Source: Myxococcales bacterium | GTDB taxonomy: Bacteria; Myxococcota_A; Bradymonadia; REDH01 | Length of the DNA stretch: 40,018 nt | Assembly (NCBI GenBank): GCA_947496715.1 | Contig: CANMDT010000016.1 | Span: 1-40,018 of the forward strand | Direction of reading: 5' to 3' | Shown: positions 20,004-29,463 of the stretch, in pieces | How positions within the stretch are numbered: position 1 is the stretch's first letter | Layout of the letters: each line of letters starts with the position of its first letter | Program-made: the position numbers and the translations under genes | The notes under the pieces: generated by a model | Database searches by the model: none | What the model saw: only the letters and a program-made list of their open reading frames with translations | What the model was told of the DNA's origin: nothing

Positions 20004-21410
20004 ATGCATGTCGAATGTCCCAAGTGTGGAAGTCTGTGTCGTGTCGCAGACGGCTCTCTCCCCGAAGCGGGCGCCAACCTCAGGTGCGGCTCCTGCACGA
20101 ATGTCTTCTTCGTCGCACCCGACGCCGCAGGTTCCCTTCGCGTCGTGCAGGCCTCCGCAAGCGGCAACTATCCTGCAGCGGCAAGCGCCGAGGCCACCAT
20201 CACGGGCAGCCTGCCCGCGACCTCCTCTTCGCCCACCATGACCGGCACAGCGCGAGCCATGACAGGTGTCTACGCAGCCATCTCTGGCCTCGGAAACGAA
20301 GCCTCCACAGACGCATCTCAGCCTGCCATAAGCTCCGACTCCGGCTCCACGCCGCGCGTAGCCATCGACCCGCGCCTCACCGGTTCCACCGCGACGCTTC
20401 AGCCGCATACCGCATCCGACGTCGTTCCTCCGCAGGGGGCTTGGCAGGTCCGCGGCACAGACGGCATGGTCTTCAATTTCATCGACGCCGGTGATGTGCA
20501 GATCTGGCTCAGCCGCCGCGACTCCCACGAGGGACTCAGCGCTTCGAACGACGGAGGCAAGGTCTGGAGCGACCTCGCTACCCTCCCCTACTTTGCCAAG
20601 GTCCTGGCCGCCGGAAAGCTCGGTGGCCGCCGCACCGGAGTAACGAGCGCCATCCCACGCGCGACCGGCTCCTTCCAGAGCGTCGGCCCGCGCAGCGGCT
20701 CCGCGCCCGCCCTCTCTGGCAACGCACCCGCAGTCTCGGGCTCGCAACCGGCCGTCACTGGCAGCCAGCCCAAGGTCTCCAGCAGCGTCCTGCCCGTCAC
20801 CAGCCTTGGAAACACAGGCTCCCAGCCCGCCGTCACAGGCAACAACCCACGCGTCACCGGCAGCAACCCACGCGTCACCGGCAGCAACCCGGCCATCACG
20901 GGCTCCATGCCCGCGATCCCTGTCGACAAGAAGGCCGCGGCAGCCCGTCAGAAGGCCATCTTCGGGCTCATCGCCCGCCTTGTCGTTCTGATCGGCGTCG
21001 CCGCCGCGGGCTACTACGCCTACGACGCAATGTATGCCGAAGAGGTCCTCGAAATCCCCAATACCCCGGCCGGCGACAAACTCCGCTGGACCATGGCCGT
21101 ATTCAACCAGAAGCGCGGCGAAGTGACCGAGGATGAGATTCTGAAGAACTTCTCGCCCGAAGTCACAAGCAAGGTCACGCCTGCTGCATTGGTCGAGAAC
21201 TTCATCTTCCTTGGTCGACAGAATGGCTTCTACGAGCTCGTCTCCATCGAAGAGGGTGCAACAGACCACAGCCTTATCGCCGTCATGCGGACCACCAACC
21301 TGAGCCTCGTCGAACTCCGCATCACCACCGAGAACAAGCCCCCCTTCAGCTTCAAGTCGCTGGCCTTCGAGGAGACCAAGCGGCGTCCGAAGGGCTCGGG
21401 CTTTAACTAG
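20004..21410 (+). CDS. Zinc-ribbon membrane protein with GYF-like domain and xPAVTG repeats
   Basis: The 468-aa protein begins with an MJ0042-type zinc ribbon: CPKC (C5, C8) and CGSC (C28, C31). A Thr/Ser/Gly linker follows, then a GYF/DUF4339-like domain at about 146-200 (GAWQVRGTDGMVFNF...VWSDLATLPYF). A seven-residue repeat, xP[A/R][V/I][T/S]G[S/N], runs at about 235-305. One transmembrane helix lies near 319-340, and a C-terminal domain of about 125 residues lies across the membrane. This layout is typical of delta-proteobacterial and myxobacterial regulatory membrane proteins. I infer a cytoplasmic N-terminal sensing or protein-binding part and a periplasmic C-terminal domain of unknown role. 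It ends in CTAG, which also holds the stop of the convergent hydrolase gene. Confidence 0.82.
   Translation: MHVECPKCGSLCRVADGSLPEAGANLRCGSCTNVFFVAPDAAGSLRVVQASASGNYPAAASAEATITGSLPATSSSPTMTGTARAMTGVYAAISGLGNEASTDASQPAISSDSGSTPRVAIDPRLTGSTATLQPHTASDVVPPQGAWQVRGTDGMVFNFIDAGDVQIWLSRRDSHEGLSASNDGGKVWSDLATLPYFAKVLAAGKLGGRRTGVTSAIPRATGSFQSVGPRSGSAPALSGNAPAVSGSQPAVTGSQPKVSSSVLPVTSLGNTGSQPAVTGNNPRVTGSNPRVTGSNPAITGSMPAIPVDKKAAAARQKAIFGLIARLVVLIGVAAAGYYAYDAMYAEEVLEIPNTPAGDKLRWTMAVFNQKRGEVTEDEILKNFSPEVTSKVTPAALVENFIFLGRQNGFYELVSIEEGATDHSLIAVMRTTNLSLVELRITTENKPPFSFKSLAFEETKRRPKGSGFN
20706..20915 (+). repeat. Degenerate 21-base repeats encoding xPAVTGS units
   Basis: About ten units of seven codons encode variants of N-P-R-V-T-G-S and Q-P-A-V-T-G-S. 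Two adjacent units near 20848-20890 are identical at DNA level. They form the linker before the transmembrane helix of the zinc-ribbon protein. Confidence 0.75.
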
Positions 21411-22694: not shown

Positions 22695-23615
22695 GTGTCG
22701 AACGAGAACACCAAACAGACCCGACAGATCACCCTCGTCCGCGCCATCACGCTGCCTGGGCAGGAGCAGAAGTTCGACGCATGTCTGCTGGGTCTTGCGG
22801 GCCGCGACATGGGCCGACGCTTCCTGCTCGCGCAGCGCAAGATCTCCATCGGACGCTCTGAGCAGGCCGACGTCACCATCGACGACGACGATGCTTCGCG
22901 GCTCCACTGCGAGATCCTCGCGCATCCCGCCGGCGTGATGCTCCAAGATCTCCAGAGCACCAACGGAACCAAGGTCAACGGCGAGCGCGTCAAGCAGCAG
23001 CTGCTTTCGGATGGAGACCAGATCCAGATTGGCGGTGCGGTCTTCCGCTTCACGCGCGCGAACCACGTCGAGGCCCACTACTTCGACGAGATGTTCCGCC
23101 TCACCAACACCGACCCGCTCACCGGGGCCTACAACAAGCGCTACTTTCTAAGCATGCTCGAGCGCGAGCTCGCCCGCGCGGAGCGATACAAGCGAGAGTC
23201 CGCGCTTCTCATGCTCGACCTCGACCACTTCAAGAAGGTGAACGACACCTTCGGCCATGTCGCGGGCGATGCCGTGCTCGTGGAGGCGGTGAAACGGATC
23301 GGGGCCGAGCTCACCAGCGAAGACCTGCTCGCCCGCTTTGGCGGCGAAGAGTTCGTCGTGCTGCTCGACCAGACGACGCTCGCAGAAGCGGCGCTGGTGG
23401 CCGAACGCATCCGCGCCAGCATTGCCGCCTCGCCCATGCTCCACGCGGGCGCGACGATCCCCGTCACAACCTCCATCGGCGTCAGCGGCCTGCAGGAGGT
23501 CGCCGGAGCAGACGACGCCGCCTCGCGGACGCATCGGGTCGAGGCGCTCCTCACGCTTGCCGACACCAAACTATACGAGGCCAAGCATGCAGGTCGAAAT
23601 CGCGTCGTTATCTAG
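22695..23615 (+). CDS. FHA-GGDEF diguanylate cyclase
   Basis: The 306-aa cytoplasmic protein joins a phosphothreonine-binding FHA domain (about 35-120) to a GGDEF domain (about 140-306) that makes cyclic-di-GMP from GTP. FHA key residues are visible: G53-R54-S55, S68-R69, H71 and N90-G91. The cyclase active site is GGEEF (216-220), a catalytically competent form, with DLDHFKKVND upstream. The product-inhibition I-site RxxD is replaced by TSED (207-210). The frame is open upstream, but GTG at 22695 is preceded by GAGG with a 5-base spacer and precedes the first folded segment. It overlaps the next gene by 29 bases. A phosphorylated partner is expected; none is proven here. Confidence 0.9.
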   Translation: MSNENTKQTRQITLVRAITLPGQEQKFDACLLGLAGRDMGRRFLLAQRKISIGRSEQADVTIDDDDASRLHCEILAHPAGVMLQDLQSTNGTKVNGERVKQQLLSDGDQIQIGGAVFRFTRANHVEAHYFDEMFRLTNTDPLTGAYNKRYFLSMLERELARAERYKRESALLMLDLDHFKKVNDTFGHVAGDAVLVEAVKRIGAELTSEDLLARFGGEEFVVLLDQTTLAEAALVAERIRASIAASPMLHAGATIPVTTSIGVSGLQEVAGADDAASRTHRVEALLTLADTKLYEAKHAGRNRVVI

Positions 23616-24609
23616 TCTCCGGCTGCTCCCCTCGCTCCTCCTCCTGCTTGCCGCCTGCAGTGCCGAAGAGAAGGCCACCGACGATGCTGACACCTCGGCA
23701 GACAGCGGCGCTGACGGCTCCGCCGACGGCAGCGGCAGGCCCGATTGCATTACCTTCTCAGGTTCCGGTGAGCCACCCGTCTGCGCCGAGCCTGCGACCG
23801 CTGCGCCGCTCGCTGCCGGGCCGGCCCGCGACCCATCCTGCGGCGTCTCCTCGAAGTGGGTGACCAGCATCTCGGGCACCATCCTCGACGATGCCGGTGC
23901 CCCCGTGCCCTGCGCCAAGGCGCAGGTCTGCGTGCGTGGCGGAAAGCCGGCTCGGCTCACCTGCCTCCGCCCCGTCACCACCGCGCAGGACGGCACCTTC
24001 ACCATTCCGGTCGGGACCGAGGTGCAGTGCATGAGCTCGGCTACGCTTCGTCTCTTTGCGCCCGGTCGTCCGCTGGCAACCACCTACTGCGGTGTCGACT
24101 TGGCTGCAGAGGGCGACATCACCCTCGCCGATACCGGGCGCCTCTTCCGCCTCCGCGCCCCCGTTAACGCCCCCGACTTCTGCGACGAGACAGAGGCGCA
24201 ATCTGTCTCGCTCGACGGCGGGCTCACCGTCGAAGTACAACCTTCGCTGCTGTCCGACGCCGCGGGCGACCTCCCGCAGCTCTTGGCAGCCAAGGTCGAC
24301 CCCAGTGCTGAAGGGCTCTGCTTCCTCGGCGCCGACGCGCCTGCGATGCTCTACGCCTTCGGCCCCGAAACCGATGTCGCAGGCGACGGCTTCCGCTTCT
24401 CGCTGCCGAACGACCTCGGGCTGGCCGCCGGGGCGACCGCCAATCTCTTCATCCTCGGTGGCCTCTCCACAACCGTGGGCACCGAGAGCATCGAGGAGGG
24501 CGAGTGGCACCTCTACGGACAGGGCACCGTCTCTGCAGACGGCAGCCGCATCCTTGCCGAGGGCGTGAACGGCCTGCCCTACCTCTCCTGGCTGGGCGTC
24601 GCGCCCTAG
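23587..24609 (+). CDS. Cys-containing lipoprotein of unknown function
   Basis: The 340-aa product starts MQVEIASLSS with a lipobox LAAC (C24), followed by an acidic Ala/Asp/Ser linker. At about 90-165 a carboxypeptidase-regulatory-like beta-sandwich is likely (ISGTILDDAGAPVPCAKAQVCV...DGTFTIPVG). The rest is beta-rich with several Cys. I do not recognise the full family. The start is inside the end of the FHA-GGDEF gene in another frame; GAGG with a 6-base spacer precedes the ATG, so co-translation is likely. It is probably anchored in the outer membrane. Confidence 0.78.
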   Translation: MQVEIASLSSLRLLPSLLLLLAACSAEEKATDDADTSADSGADGSADGSGRPDCITFSGSGEPPVCAEPATAAPLAAGPARDPSCGVSSKWVTSISGTILDDAGAPVPCAKAQVCVRGGKPARLTCLRPVTTAQDGTFTIPVGTEVQCMSSATLRLFAPGRPLATTYCGVDLAAEGDITLADTGRLFRLRAPVNAPDFCDETEAQSVSLDGGLTVEVQPSLLSDAAGDLPQLLAAKVDPSAEGLCFLGADAPAMLYAFGPETDVAGDGFRFSLPNDLGLAAGATANLFILGGLSTTVGTESIEEGEWHLYGQGTVSADGSRILAEGVNGLPYLSWLGVAP

Positions 24610-24698: not shown

Positions 24699-25877
24699 CT
24701 ATTCGATGGTGAACTCGTAAGGGGCGCTGGCGCTGCTGTAGCCGTAGACCGCGACGTAGGCGGGGCCGGTGTAGCTGAGCGCCTCGGTGCCGGTCGTCTC
24801 TTGGCTGATGACGTCGTTGCCGGCCGAATCCTTGACGGGGCGGTTGTTGGGCACGTCGAGCACAAACATGTCGATGTCACCCAACGACTGGTCGTAGGTG
24901 AGGGTCATCGTCCAGGGGCCGGCCTCGGTGATCGAGTAGATGTCGGGGGCTGCCGAGCAGATGCCGCCGGTGAAGGAGCCGATGCCAACGGGCGTGGCGG
25001 TAGTCGCATCGTCGTTGGGCTCGGTGAGCTCATCGTCGCCAGGGCCGCAGTTGCTGGTGAAGGGGACGGTCGGCGGGCCCCACGAGCCGGCATCGGGGTC
25101 ACGCGCAATCTCGACGAAGTTGAGGTAGCTGCCGCCCGCGTTCTCGGGGTTGGCGATGACCTGCATATCGCGGACGCGAATGACATAGGCACTGGGGAAG
25201 GCGTTCACCTCACCGAGGGTGTGGAAGTAGTTGGCGGGGTTGGCGGCGCCATCACCGACGGCCCACATGTTGTCCGGAGCGACGCCGTTGAGGGTGGCGT
25301 GCTGGGTGACGAAGCGCTTTGCCTCCGCATTGCTCGCCGGCGCGCCGCTGGTGTCTTCGAAGTTAACGACGACGAAGAGGCCACCCTCTGCCTTGAACTC
25401 TTCCGCAACCCGAGACGCGAAGGCGATTTCGGCGGGGCAGTACTGGCACCAGGAGGCTACCACGATGATGGCCAGCGTATCGATCGGCGCCTCGGTCGAC
25501 ATGGGGTCGGCGCAGGTCTGGTTCTCGAAGAGCTTGTAGAAGTCGACATCGCCGGCCGCCTGGGTGCCGACGTTGGTCGCGCCGCGCCAGAAAAGGTCCT
25601 TCACGGTGTCGCCAAGCTGAAGACCTTCAGCAGCGCCAAGGTTGGGGTAGACGGGACGGCAGGCGCCGGTGCCCGTGTCGGTCGTTCCGCCGTCGGTCTC
25701 GGTCGTGCCGGTGTCGGTGGTGCCGGTGTCTTCGGTCGTGGCGCCCGAGCCGCCCGTGCCCGTGTCAGCCGTGCCGCCGCCGCCGCCGCCGGTCTCGTTG
25801 CGAACTTCAATCTCGCTGCTGCAGCCAGCAGCCGTAAGCATCACCAGCAGGCTCAACGACAAACTCTTACGGACCAT
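24699..25877 (-). CDS. Thioredoxin-fold lipoprotein with C-terminal PPC-like domain
   Basis: The 392-aa lipoprotein carries its lipidated Cys at residue 19 (LTAAGC), then a Gly/Thr/Asp-rich linker to about residue 72. A thioredoxin/TlpA-like domain follows with active site WCQYC (C144, C147) inside IIVVASWCQYCPAEIAFA, and a cis-Pro-like FPSAYVI later. The last about 95 residues (GICSAAPDIYSITEAGPWTMTL onward) resemble a bacterial pre-peptidase C-terminal (PPC) beta-domain. It should act as an extracytoplasmic thiol-disulfide protein. The ATG at 25877 has GGGAG with a 7-base spacer; an open extension of 20 codons upstream is unlikely. It is divergent from another thioredoxin-fold lipoprotein 122 bases away. 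Confidence 0.86.
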   Translation of the reverse strand: MVRKSLSLSLLVMLTAAGCSSEIEVRNETGGGGGGTADTGTGGSGATTEDTGTTDTGTTETDGGTTDTGTGACRPVYPNLGAAEGLQLGDTVKDLFWRGATNVGTQAAGDVDFYKLFENQTCADPMSTEAPIDTLAIIVVASWCQYCPAEIAFASRVAEEFKAEGGLFVVVNFEDTSGAPASNAEAKRFVTQHATLNGVAPDNMWAVGDGAANPANYFHTLGEVNAFPSAYVIRVRDMQVIANPENAGGSYLNFVEIARDPDAGSWGPPTVPFTSNCGPGDDELTEPNDDATTATPVGIGSFTGGICSAAPDIYSITEAGPWTMTLTYDQSLGDIDMFVLDVPNNRPVKDSAGNDVISQETTGTEALSYTGPAYVAVYGYSSASAPYEFTIE

Positions 25878-25929
25878 GTGTAGACTCCCAAGAAATCGCA
25901 CGCTGGCACCACAATAGGGCCGTGCGGAA

Positions 25930-25959
25930 TTGACCAAACCGACCCTGCCACACTAGAAA
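25930..25959 (+). promoter_or_regulatory. Candidate promoter of the thioredoxin-barrel cluster
   Basis: TTGACC (25930-25935) and TAGAAA (25954-25959) are spaced by 18 bases and lie about 40 bases before the ATG at 26000, within the 122-base divergent gap. The -35 is 5 of 6 and the -10 is 4 of 6 to consensus. Confidence 0.4.
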
Positions 25960-25999
25960 AAGACCTGCAAGCGCGCACCGCTCTTTTTGGTGATTCCTC

Positions 26000-26596
26000 A
26001 TGAACTTTCTCGCTCTTCGCCTCGCCCTCCCCGCCGTGCTCCTGCTCACCACCATGAGCGGCTGTGCCGACGAAGAGGCTGTCACCTGTGGCGCTGTCAC
26101 GGCGGTTCCTCGTACGACCTACCCCGCAGCGCCTTACGGAACTGCCGCCGGAACGACCCTCGCGAACCTCTCCTTTGCCGACCCGAACGGCACCGCGACC
26201 GTCGACTTCCAGAGCCTCCGCGCCAGCGGCGACAAGCGGCTGCTCATGGTCATCACCTCGGCGGGCTGGTGCTCGGCCTGCATCGAAGAGCAGCCCGAAC
26301 TCAACCGGCTCTACGACACCTACAAAGATTGTGGTCTTGAGGTGCTGCTCACGGTCTTCGAAGATGACCAGACAAGCCCGGCCACGCCTGCCCTCGCTGC
26401 CCAGTGGAAGAGCAGCTATAGCAACACCTTCCCCGTCGTCGCCGACGCACCCTTTGTGCTCAAGGACTACTACGACGAGAGTTACACGCCGATGGTCATG
26501 TTCGTCGACCTTGAGACCATGGAGATCCTCAGCATCGCCACCGGTCAGGTGGACGCTGCGACCGAGGCCTTTATCCGGCAGCAGCTCGCAGAATAA
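26000..26596 (+). CDS. Thioredoxin-fold lipoprotein, CSAC active site
   Basis: The 198-aa product has a lipobox MSGC with lipidated C22 and a redoxin/thioredoxin-like domain from about residue 50. The active-site motif is AGWCSACIEEQPEL (C91, C94). The cis-Pro loop reads ESYTPMVMFVD. The CxxC is intact, so it should exchange disulfides outside the cytoplasm. It starts the rightward cluster with the TlpA-type gene 58 bases downstream, and pairs with the divergent thioredoxin lipoprotein. Extra Cys residues at 30 and 113 may form a structural disulfide. The substrate is unknown. Confidence 0.86.
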   Translation: MNFLALRLALPAVLLLTTMSGCADEEAVTCGAVTAVPRTTYPAAPYGTAAGTTLANLSFADPNGTATVDFQSLRASGDKRLLMVITSAGWCSACIEEQPELNRLYDTYKDCGLEVLLTVFEDDQTSPATPALAAQWKSSYSNTFPVVADAPFVLKDYYDESYTPMVMFVDLETMEILSIATGQVDAATEAFIRQQLAE

Positions 26597-26654
26597 CCTC
26601 GGCTGACTTCCGTCCTGCGACCGTCCCCTCTCGCTCGAACCGCCTCGGAGCCCC

Positions 26655-27179
26655 ATGACCTCCTCCTTCAGCCGCCTCCTCTCTATCGCCCTCTTCGCCC
26701 TTCTGACCCTGTCCGGCACCGTCTCGGCTGGCGAGGCACCGCGGGCCGCTGCGCCCGCCATCTCGCTCAAGAGCCTCGACGGCAAGCCTGTCACACTCGC
26801 GCAGCACAAGGGCAAGGTGGTCCTCATCAGCTTCTGGGCCACCTGGTGCGGCCCCTGCCAGCAGGAGCTGCCCAAGATTCAGGCCATCGCCACCAAGTAT
26901 GCCGACAAGGGCCTCGTCGTCCTGACCGTCAGCGTCGATGACGCCTCCACCGTCGCGCAGGTCCGCGCCACGGCCCGCAAGCACCGCCTCAGCGTGCCCG
27001 TCCTGCTCGACCCCGACAACACCGCCATCGCCTCCTTCAACCCCCGCGGCGATGTGCCCTTCACGGTCATCATCGACAAGAACGGCAACATCGCTGAAAA
27101 GCATGGTGGCTACACCGCGGGCGACGAGGCGAACTACGAGAAGATTGTGGTCGGCCTGCTCGCAGAAGCCGCCAAGTGA
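26655..27179 (+). CDS. TlpA-family thiol-disulfide oxidoreductase
   Basis: The 174-aa exported protein has a Sec signal peptide (cleavage near GTVSA, residue 25). Its AhpC/TSA-TlpA thioredoxin domain has the canonical WCGPC (C65, C68) in SFWATWCGPCQQELPK. The cis-Pro loop is DVPFTVIIDKNGN. Such proteins reduce disulfides in the periplasm, for example for cytochrome c or metal-centre assembly. GGAG lies 4 bases before the ATG. Its TGA stop overlaps the GTG start of the beta-barrel gene (GTGA), so the two are made together. This suggests that the barrel protein or its cargo is the redox client. Confidence 0.92.
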   Translation: MTSSFSRLLSIALFALLTLSGTVSAGEAPRAAAPAISLKSLDGKPVTLAQHKGKVVLISFWATWCGPCQQELPKIQAIATKYADKGLVVLTVSVDDASTVAQVRATARKHRLSVPVLLDPDNTAIASFNPRGDVPFTVIIDKNGNIAEKHGGYTAGDEANYEKIVVGLLAEAAK

Positions 27180-28735
27180 AGCGCGCGCCCCTTCTTCTCG
27201 GGCTCGTCGCGGTGACGGCAGGCGCAGGCTTTGCCGCGTCCACGCGCGCCCAGGAGGCTGCGGCCACACAGCTTCAGGTGACCTCGACCACCGTGGTCGA
27301 GCAGCACACCGACAACCAGGATGATGCCACCGACAACGATGACTATGGGATCGTTGTGCAGCGGCTCAACCTCGGTGCAGTGTCCAACGGTCTGGAGTTC
27401 ACCGGCCGCCTCGATGGCGTTGGCCTGTGGAACGAGCCCTCCGCCGCCTACGGCTCCTATCTTGAGCTCGAGCGGCTCGGCGTCGTCTGGCGTGGCGAGG
27501 CCGTGAGCCTGAAAGCGGGCGACGACTACCTTCAGGTGGGCCGAGGCTTTCTGCTGTCGCTCCGCAAGAACGACGAGGCGGGTCTCGACATCTCCTTCCG
27601 CGGCGTTGGCGTGGAGGCTGATACCGGCCCGGTCCATAGCCGCCTCTTCTACGGTCGGAGCAACTTCGCCAACCTCGATGCGCTTACCCAGCGCTCGATC
27701 GCCGATGTGAACGATATCATCTCGGGCGCAGTGGTCACCGCCGACGCCGGCGATTTCGGCACAATCGGCCTGCAGACGGTCGCTGTCTCGACCCGGATTG
27801 GCAGCGGAGCCACGGCAACCGATGGCGCGTTCACGGGCGTGGGCGCAACCTGGGACCTCCCCGCGCCGACGACCTGGATGTCGCTCTATGCGGAGGCAAA
27901 CCTGCTGCGAAGCGAATCCTATGGCATCGCCGAACAGCACCCCGCTGCGCTGCTCTCCACCAACTTTTTTGTGGGCGATGCGACACTCATCCTCGAGGCG
28001 CTCACCGTCGAGGGTTTCGCCATCGAGAGCACCCCGCAGCCTGCTGCGGCCGGCCTGGGCACCACGGGAGCCACCTTCTACTACAACCAGACGCCCACGC
28101 TCGAGCGACCCGATCAGGAGGTGCTCAACGCCAACGACGCGAATGCGCTGCGGACCAGGCTGGACTACGTCGTCGGCGATACCGGCCTCTCAGTCTATGC
28201 CAATGCGCTGCTCCGTCAGCAGGGCCAGAGCACCGCGCTACCCACCGATCAGCTGCATGGCTACGCTGGATGGGAGTTTGCCTACGGCGAAGGCGCGTCG
28301 CACTTCAACGGCAGCGTCGGAGCCCGCAACGAGACGCAGAACGGCAAGGAGTTCGCAACCATGGAGCACGCCGACATCGACTGCGTGCAGGCGCTCGGCG
28401 GCCCCTGGTCGCTTCACCTGACCGCAAAGGGCGAGAACTGGAGGAAGCAGGCGGTTGGCGCCACCAAGGCCTACGTTCGCGGCAACGCCATCGTCGGGCT
28501 CGACCTGCGCGGCATCGGCGGTCTGGCGTTTGAATACGGCCATGATGACGAGAAGGAGGGCGACGACCGCCGCATCGACTTCTACGCTGGCCACATCAAC
28601 TATGAGATCTCCGAGGCCTTCACCCTGCGCGGCGTGGGCGGCTCGCAGCGGGGCGGCCTCAAGTGCGTCAATGGCGTCTGCCGCGAGTACCCCTCTTTCT
28701 CGGGCGGACGGCTCGAGCTCATCGCGAGGTTCTGA
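27176..28735 (+). CDS. Predicted outer-membrane beta-barrel protein (DUF6029-like)
   Basis: The 519-aa product has a signal peptide (KRAPLLLGLVAVTAGAGFA, cleavage near residue 27). It continues with many amphipathic strands and ends in ARF, a C-terminal Phe as in outer-membrane barrels. GDDYLQVGRGFLLSLRKN near 115-131 resembles the conserved part of DUF6029-type proteins; this is by memory. Two Cys near the C-terminus (KCVNGVCREYPSF) could form a disulfide, and one more Cys is at about residue 402. The start is GTG overlapping the TlpA stop. The stop overlaps the ATG of the next gene in TGATG. Translational coupling to a TlpA protein is the informative context. Confidence 0.78.
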   Translation: MKRAPLLLGLVAVTAGAGFAASTRAQEAAATQLQVTSTTVVEQHTDNQDDATDNDDYGIVVQRLNLGAVSNGLEFTGRLDGVGLWNEPSAAYGSYLELERLGVVWRGEAVSLKAGDDYLQVGRGFLLSLRKNDEAGLDISFRGVGVEADTGPVHSRLFYGRSNFANLDALTQRSIADVNDIISGAVVTADAGDFGTIGLQTVAVSTRIGSGATATDGAFTGVGATWDLPAPTTWMSLYAEANLLRSESYGIAEQHPAALLSTNFFVGDATLILEALTVEGFAIESTPQPAAAGLGTTGATFYYNQTPTLERPDQEVLNANDANALRTRLDYVVGDTGLSVYANALLRQQGQSTALPTDQLHGYAGWEFAYGEGASHFNGSVGARNETQNGKEFATMEHADIDCVQALGGPWSLHLTAKGENWRKQAVGATKAYVRGNAIVGLDLRGIGGLAFEYGHDDEKEGDDRRIDFYAGHINYEISEAFTLRGVGGSQRGGLKCVNGVCREYPSFSGGRLELIARF

Positions 28736-29463
28736 TGCGCCTTACCCTCGGACTGCTTGCGCTGCTGGCGCTCACCACCCTGCATCCAGGCAGCAGCGAA
28801 GGAGCCTCTTCACGCGGCGGCCTTTACCAGCGCTACCGCGGCGAACTCCTCGACGATGCAGCCCGTCCGCTCTCGGGCATCTTCACCATGACCTTCTCCT
28901 TCTGGCAGCACCCGAGCGGCCCGCCTGTCTGGCGGGAGACCCGCGTCGTTGCGGTGGTTGACGGCGAGTATGAGGTCAAACTGGGCAGCATCAACCCCAT
29001 GCCCTTCCAGCTGCAGAACAGCCCCGGCGAACTCCACGTCATGCTGGAGGCGGACGAACTGACCAGGCACGCCTTCCGCGTGTCGCTCATCCGCGCCGAC
29101 CTAGACTCGGCCGAGCCCAAGCTGCCCGTGCCCGTCTATCTTGCAGAGGTCACCGAGCGGGCGATGCTCGCAGCCTACGCCGAAACCGCCAACAACTGCG
29201 ACCGGCTCGGCGGCAAGCGGATCGATGAGATTGATCGCTTCGAAGAGCTGCTGGCGGAGGTAGCGAGGATGCGGGCGCTGCTCGACAGTGCGGGAGACAA
29301 GCCGCACATCAGCAACAAGCAGGTGGGCCTGCCCCGCATCGGCGGCTCGACTGGAAACAGGTATGCCGTGAACTGCCCGCCCGGTTCCATTGTCACAGGC
29401 GTCGAGATCAAAGGCGGCGACCTCATCGACTCCATCACGCCGACCTGCACGCCCATCGAGTAG
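28735..29463 (+). CDS. Secreted protein with coiled coil and Cys-bounded C-terminal module
   Basis: The 242-aa product has an N-terminal signal (RLTLGLLALLALTTLHPGSSEGA). A beta-rich domain (about 30-125) contains YRGELLDDAARPLSGIFTMTFSFW. A short coiled-coil helix follows (about 163-185, RIDEIDRFEELLAEVARMRALL). The last about 35 residues run NCPPGSIVTGVEIKGGDLIDSI to PTC; this pattern, with a Cys-Pro entry, a Gly-rich body, IDSI and a closing Cys, recalls small lectin-like C-terminal modules in myxobacterial exported proteins. It starts in TGATG overlapping the barrel gene. A helper or surface partner of that barrel is plausible, but function is unknown. Confidence 0.75.
   Translation: MRLTLGLLALLALTTLHPGSSEGASSRGGLYQRYRGELLDDAARPLSGIFTMTFSFWQHPSGPPVWRETRVVAVVDGEYEVKLGSINPMPFQLQNSPGELHVMLEADELTRHAFRVSLIRADLDSAEPKLPVPVYLAEVTERAMLAAYAETANNCDRLGGKRIDEIDRFEELLAEVARMRALLDSAGDKPHISNKQVGLPRIGGSTGNRYAVNCPPGSIVTGVEIKGGDLIDSITPTCTPIE

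Follow-up and report, generated by a model that had tools for sequence, protein, structure and literature searches.

Why would a bacterium encode an outer-membrane beta-barrel together with its own set of thioredoxin-like proteins? The question arises from a stretch of 40,018 nucleotides of a Myxococcales bacterium (hereafter the window, which is contig G000:C16 of a draft host genome in 244 contigs, 93% complete), where six genes for exported proteins lie between 23.6 and 29.5 kb: up1, lipoA, lipoB, TlpA, a barrel of the DUF6029 family and a secreted protein (Table 1). An earlier note on this DNA had proposed a dedicated envelope thiol-redox module made of the last five. Our analysis retains lipoA, lipoB, TlpA and the barrel, removes the secreted protein, and adds up1, which lies inside the conserved block and was missing from that five-gene list. 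In this composition the module is almost certainly a real functional unit, and it probably represents a dedicated machine that makes or mends disulfide bonds at the outer membrane of many Myxococcota.

Layout of the locus

The sequence agrees with the earlier description on all points. Lipoproteins with WCQYC and WCSAC stand beside a TlpA protein with WCGPC, and no other called gene of the window encodes a WCxxC protein. The TlpA and barrel genes overlap in GTGA, the barrel and secreted-protein genes in TGATG, and the CVNGVC pair is seen near the C-terminus of the barrel. Cytochrome c genes had been said to be absent nearby, and no called gene of the window has a CxxCH heme motif. The open frame of lipoA spans 24699-25937 on the minus strand, with a likely ATG start at 25877 and the lipobox LTAAGC; lipoB has a lipobox-like TMSGC. 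Lipoboxes are thus visible in the sequence, and the outward facing of lipoA, lipoB and up1 is treated as conditional in what follows.

Elsewhere in the window (20004-21410), a protein begins with a four-cysteine segment, MHVECPKCGSLC...LRCGSC, and continues with long runs of GSQPAVTGS/GSNPRVTGS-like repeats and then a predicted membrane segment.

Table 1. Features of the locus, with window positions, strand and supporting remarks
Feature	Position	Strand	Remarks
up1, cysteine-rich lipoprotein	23587..24609	+	lipobox LLAAC; transthyretin/CarboxypepD_reg-like domain plus unnamed domain (suggested)
lipoA, lipoprotein, thioredoxin-like domain plus C-terminal extension	24699..25877	-	homolog comparison; below Pfam cut-off
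lipoA CxxC (CQYC within WCQYC)	25437..25448	-	invariant in 12/12 homologs
lipoB, thioredoxin-fold lipoprotein	26000..26596	+	Pfam AhpC-TSA; directly 5' of TlpA, conserved
lipoB CxxC (CSAC within WCSAC)	26270..26281	+	in 22/22 homologs; relatives mostly CTAC
TlpA/ResA-like thiol-disulfide oxidoreductase, signal peptide	26655..27179	+	Pfam AhpC-TSA; solved relatives, e.g. ResA
TlpA CxxC (CGPC within WCGPC)	26847..26858	+	in 35/35 homologs
DUF6029 (PF19494) outer-membrane beta-barrel, start GTG 27176	27176..28735	+	Pfam, AlphaFold2, Foldseek
Barrel C-x4-C (CVNGVC; Cys497, Cys502), hairpin between last two strands	28664..28681	+	invariant columns
Secreted coiled-coil protein, adjoins barrel, outside module	28735..29463	+	dispersed family

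Conservation of the gene block

A DUF6029 match is present in 103 of the 239 Myxococcota genomes sampled, and a barrel homolog in 37 of the 96 related genomes. Where the gene context is intact, most relatives within the class keep a block of lipoA, up1, lipoB, TlpA and barrel, in which the order of lipoA and up1 varies; in the genus of the window, lipoA runs in the opposite direction. The grouping is above chance, because it recurs across the class and the phylum and the host genome holds 12 AhpC/TSA-type matches in 3.56 Mb. The co-occurrence across Myxococcota expected by the earlier note is therefore observed for lipoA, lipoB, TlpA and the barrel, and not for the secreted protein.

The phylogenetic profile extends this view to up1. 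Of the 57 class genomes, 23 carry both the barrel and up1, and 33 carry neither. The lone exception (G003, 77% complete) has up1 without a barrel, on a contig that ends within lipoA just beside up1. The presence of lipoB tracks the same pattern except in G033. Genomes devoid of both barrel and up1 include families f3 and f5 as well as individual genomes within other families: G005, G037, G048 and G055 (65% completeness). These absences suggest repeated joint loss. Furthermore, four genomes (G004, G022, G031 and G053) encode both up1 and the barrel, but on separate contigs or at a great distance from each other. G004 keeps up1, two lipoA copies, lipoB and TlpA together, ~24 kb from the barrel. 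That the genes co-occur when unlinked argues for a functional tie between them.

Linkage between thioredoxins and barrels was counted with a profile built free of fused frames. A same-strand CxxC thioredoxin occurs within 1.2 kb upstream of the barrel in 88 of 97 loci, and at least two thioredoxins are found upstream in 38 of the 97, versus such a thioredoxin within the same distance downstream in 8 of the 93 loci with enough sequence (Fisher p ~3e-33 for upstream versus downstream, uncorrected for relatedness). In four loci (L053, L165, L177 and L189), a single open frame encodes TlpA, as the N-terminal part, and the barrel; in L189 and L177, a signal peptide ahead of TlpA is clear. Since L165 and L177 both come from family f37, the four fusions represent at least three lineages. 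A domain attached N-terminally to such a barrel is expected to be periplasmic, which would place the fused TlpA on the inner side of the membrane. These natural fusions add evidence of a physical coupling between the two proteins.

The secreted protein, which the earlier note had made a partner of the barrel, was rejected as a module member. Its relatives, detected in 46 of 58 genomes, are scattered and occur in the barrel-less families f3 and f5; the host genome carries a second copy elsewhere; and the protein adjoins the barrel solely in the window's genus, being missing from other barrel loci. By this distribution, its position 3' of the barrel is an arrangement at the level of the genus. 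Many large secreted proteins of the class match the first ~115 residues, which, by these matches, constitute a reusable N-terminal module; one such match, in the relative genome G006 (contig C33, 72374-72562), falls inside an extremely large open frame, listed at 24,370 residues.

Elsewhere in the phylum, ~27 loci (for example, L055, L059, L062 and L154) have a same-strand gene for a secreted protein of about 310-320 amino acids directly 3' of the barrel, with an N-terminal sequence that, by eye, resembles discoidin. Partners of the module may differ between lineages.

The barrel and its candidate redox partners

The barrel matches PF19494 with 32.4 bits (cut-off 27). Its AlphaFold2 model, based on 55 sequences, reaches a pLDDT of 92.3 and a pTM of 0.86 and displays about 24 predicted strands by count. 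Foldseek reports a general likeness to the PapC usher, TonB receptors, Occ porins and AlgE, with TM-scores not above ~0.5; sequence search of solved structures returned no match to the barrel, and no barrel was found in plasmid and viral collections. Conserved residues are located in predicted outer loops and strands. The two cysteines lie in a short modeled hairpin (494-498/501-505) between the final two strands. By strand parity, this hairpin is probably an outer loop, and the x-G turn between the cysteines would fit a disulfide-closed hairpin.

The conservation of this pair, a point raised in the earlier note, is complete: C-x4-C is present near the C-terminus in all 95 complete barrels among 97 Myxococcota DUF6029 loci, which were gathered by protein or HMM search and not via the cysteine motif. 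A separate scan of genome contigs yielded 80 loci, with uncultured Myxococcota and Sorangium cellulosum as named relatives, the latter with a DUF6029 barrel; since its pattern was the cysteine motif itself, these loci were left out of the conservation claim. Of 36 barrels checked, 17 contain no cysteines other than this pair. In seven loci (L043, L044, L048, L156, L184, L204 and L206), C-x4-C is retained although no thioredoxin was found nearby, which means that the pair is not strictly dependent on a linked enzyme. Three of them (L184, L204 and L206) may show a barrel role without linked redox genes. The L184 and L204 barrels share a variant ending, CAGGVCR followed by YPD.

The three thioredoxin-like proteins score differently in family tests. 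Against the Pfam AhpC-TSA cut-off of 26 bits, TlpA, which has WCGPC and a signal peptide, scores 92.6 and lipoB 29.7, versus 15.7 for lipoA, which also shows weak tblastn matches to lipoB. TlpA is close to solved ResA structures, and it stays under the NCBIfam cut-offs of ResA, TlpA and DsbE/CcmG, the best being ResA (91.5 versus 170 bits). The TlpA motif H-x-G-[YF]-x2-G-D-E was not used as a marker because just 47 of 97 loci have it. WCGPC-type sites alone cannot separate a reductase from an isomerase or an oxidase.

The host genome offers a redox background for such proteins. A single DsbD_TM match, a CcdA/DsbD-type protein, was found at G000:C52:2713-4796, and an AhpC/TSA-type match (FWATWCPSC) lies within ~1.2 kb of it, a possible electron source for envelope thioredoxins. 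A profile search of the host genome detected no VKOR and five Thioredoxin_4 (DsbA-like) matches, whose proteins would presumably serve general oxidation.

As for up1, six cysteines besides that of the lipobox are invariant in the 15-17 homologs covering them. A further pair (GGLDC ... LPCLTW) is lost jointly in the window protein, L072 and L082, and joint loss in three lineages is what a disulfide pair would be expected to show. The predicted model (pLDDT 86.7) and Foldseek, together with a weak match in Pfam, suggest two domains, the first transthyretin- or CarboxypepD_reg-like and the second unnamed; sequence comparison with solved structures gave one non-significant match (E 0.61). The cysteine pattern makes up1 a probable disulfide-bonded client or partner.

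Proposed mechanism, rival readings and known systems

From this material, we infer a dedicated thiol-disulfide system that would serve the barrel and up1. Our preferred reading, to which we assign a probability of about 0.5, is one of maturation: TlpA would keep the thiol pairing of the barrel correct until the C-x4-C staple forms. TlpA would act on the barrel chain as a periplasmic reductase or isomerase; pairing would be corrected before or during barrel insertion, resulting in a Cys497-Cys502 disulfide staple in the last outer hairpin; and the CcdA/DsbD-type (DsbD_TM) protein of the host would recharge TlpA. lipoA and lipoB would perform the corresponding task for up1 and, if outward-facing, might keep exposed disulfides in repair. 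With the cysteine hairpin predicted outside and the fused TlpA expected inside, TlpA could act directly only ahead of insertion or via the lumen.

The chief competing reading is an uptake channel: the barrel would admit a thiol-, disulfide- or metal-bearing nutrient and the thioredoxins would reduce this cargo, with up1 as a capture lipoprotein and C-x4-C merely as a structural staple. The large size of the barrel, the outer-loop and strand positions predicted for its conserved residues, its general likeness to TonB receptors and porins and the several thioredoxins per barrel would all suit such a channel, and the surface thioredoxin HBP35 of Porphyromonas gingivalis helps hemin use (PMC2907840). 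However, neighbor clustering reveals no transporter, TonB box or metal gene among the conserved neighbors, and we hold this reading to be possible but unlikely. It is improbable, in our view, that the barrel is itself redox-active in a transmembrane thiol relay, where TlpA would reduce the barrel C-x4-C, which would pass electrons on to lipoproteins taken as outward-facing, extracellular disulfides being reduced across the outer membrane. Such a relay would make use of the invariant cysteine pair, the fused TlpA and the CxxC lipoproteins within the block, but the predictions put TlpA on one side of the membrane and the cysteine hairpin on the other.

Two further readings deny the redox genes any tie to the barrel. 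Some Wzi-type barrels are similar to DUF6029 according to HHpred (PMC9603273) and AlgE is among the Foldseek matches, which might point to a polysaccharide-export porin flanked by incidental thioredoxin genes; this is very improbable, as thioredoxin linkage is far from incidental and, in the set of relatives searched, OPX (PF02563) matches and DUF6029 barrels never lie on one contig. We would give hardly any credence to an ordinary ResA/CcmG-type cytochrome c maturation protein placed beside a barrel by accident: its matches to ResA-type models and structures notwithstanding, TlpA does not reach the ResA, TlpA or DsbE thresholds of NCBIfam, CxxCH proteins are lacking among the called window genes, and linkage and fusion with the barrel are repeated.

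The maturation reading can be set against what is known of each part. In a literature search covering few subscription journals, DUF6029 is mentioned solely in PMC9603273, where DUF6029-like barrels near OPX genes are suggested to be polysaccharide porins. Neither TlpA with outer-membrane barrels in myxobacteria nor surface thioredoxin lipoproteins are described as such a system in the literature searched, and a description elsewhere is possible; likewise, we found there no earlier account of an outer-membrane barrel with its own thioredoxin set. The window barrel is a member of DUF6029 above the Pfam cut-off and shares the region of the C-terminal cysteine motif with the family. Pfam assigns the family no function, and the thioredoxin block and the fusions do not appear in the literature found. 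The invariant cysteine pair, the conserved neighbors and the natural fusions tie DUF6029 to thiol chemistry and, if this is true, make its function directly open to testing.

Among thioredoxin-fold proteins, HBP35 of P. gingivalis is an outer-surface thioredoxin-domain protein with measured thioredoxin activity (PMC2907840). HBP35 is exported through a C-terminal domain, whereas lipoA and lipoB are lipoproteins. TlpA/ResA oxidoreductases are exported thioredoxin-fold proteins with WCxPC, as is the window TlpA, but the latter is below named-equivalog cut-offs and is linked or fused to a barrel instead of being linked to cytochrome c genes. The E. coli outer-membrane barrel LptD undergoes DsbC-type disulfide isomerization, and the mechanism that we propose here likewise has a thiol-disulfide enzyme act for a barrel of the outer membrane. 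In contrast to the DsbC/LptD case, the window enzyme belongs to the TlpA family and is encoded with, or fused to, its barrel, with a putative catalytic role. The parts of the module belong to known families; their combination appears to be new.
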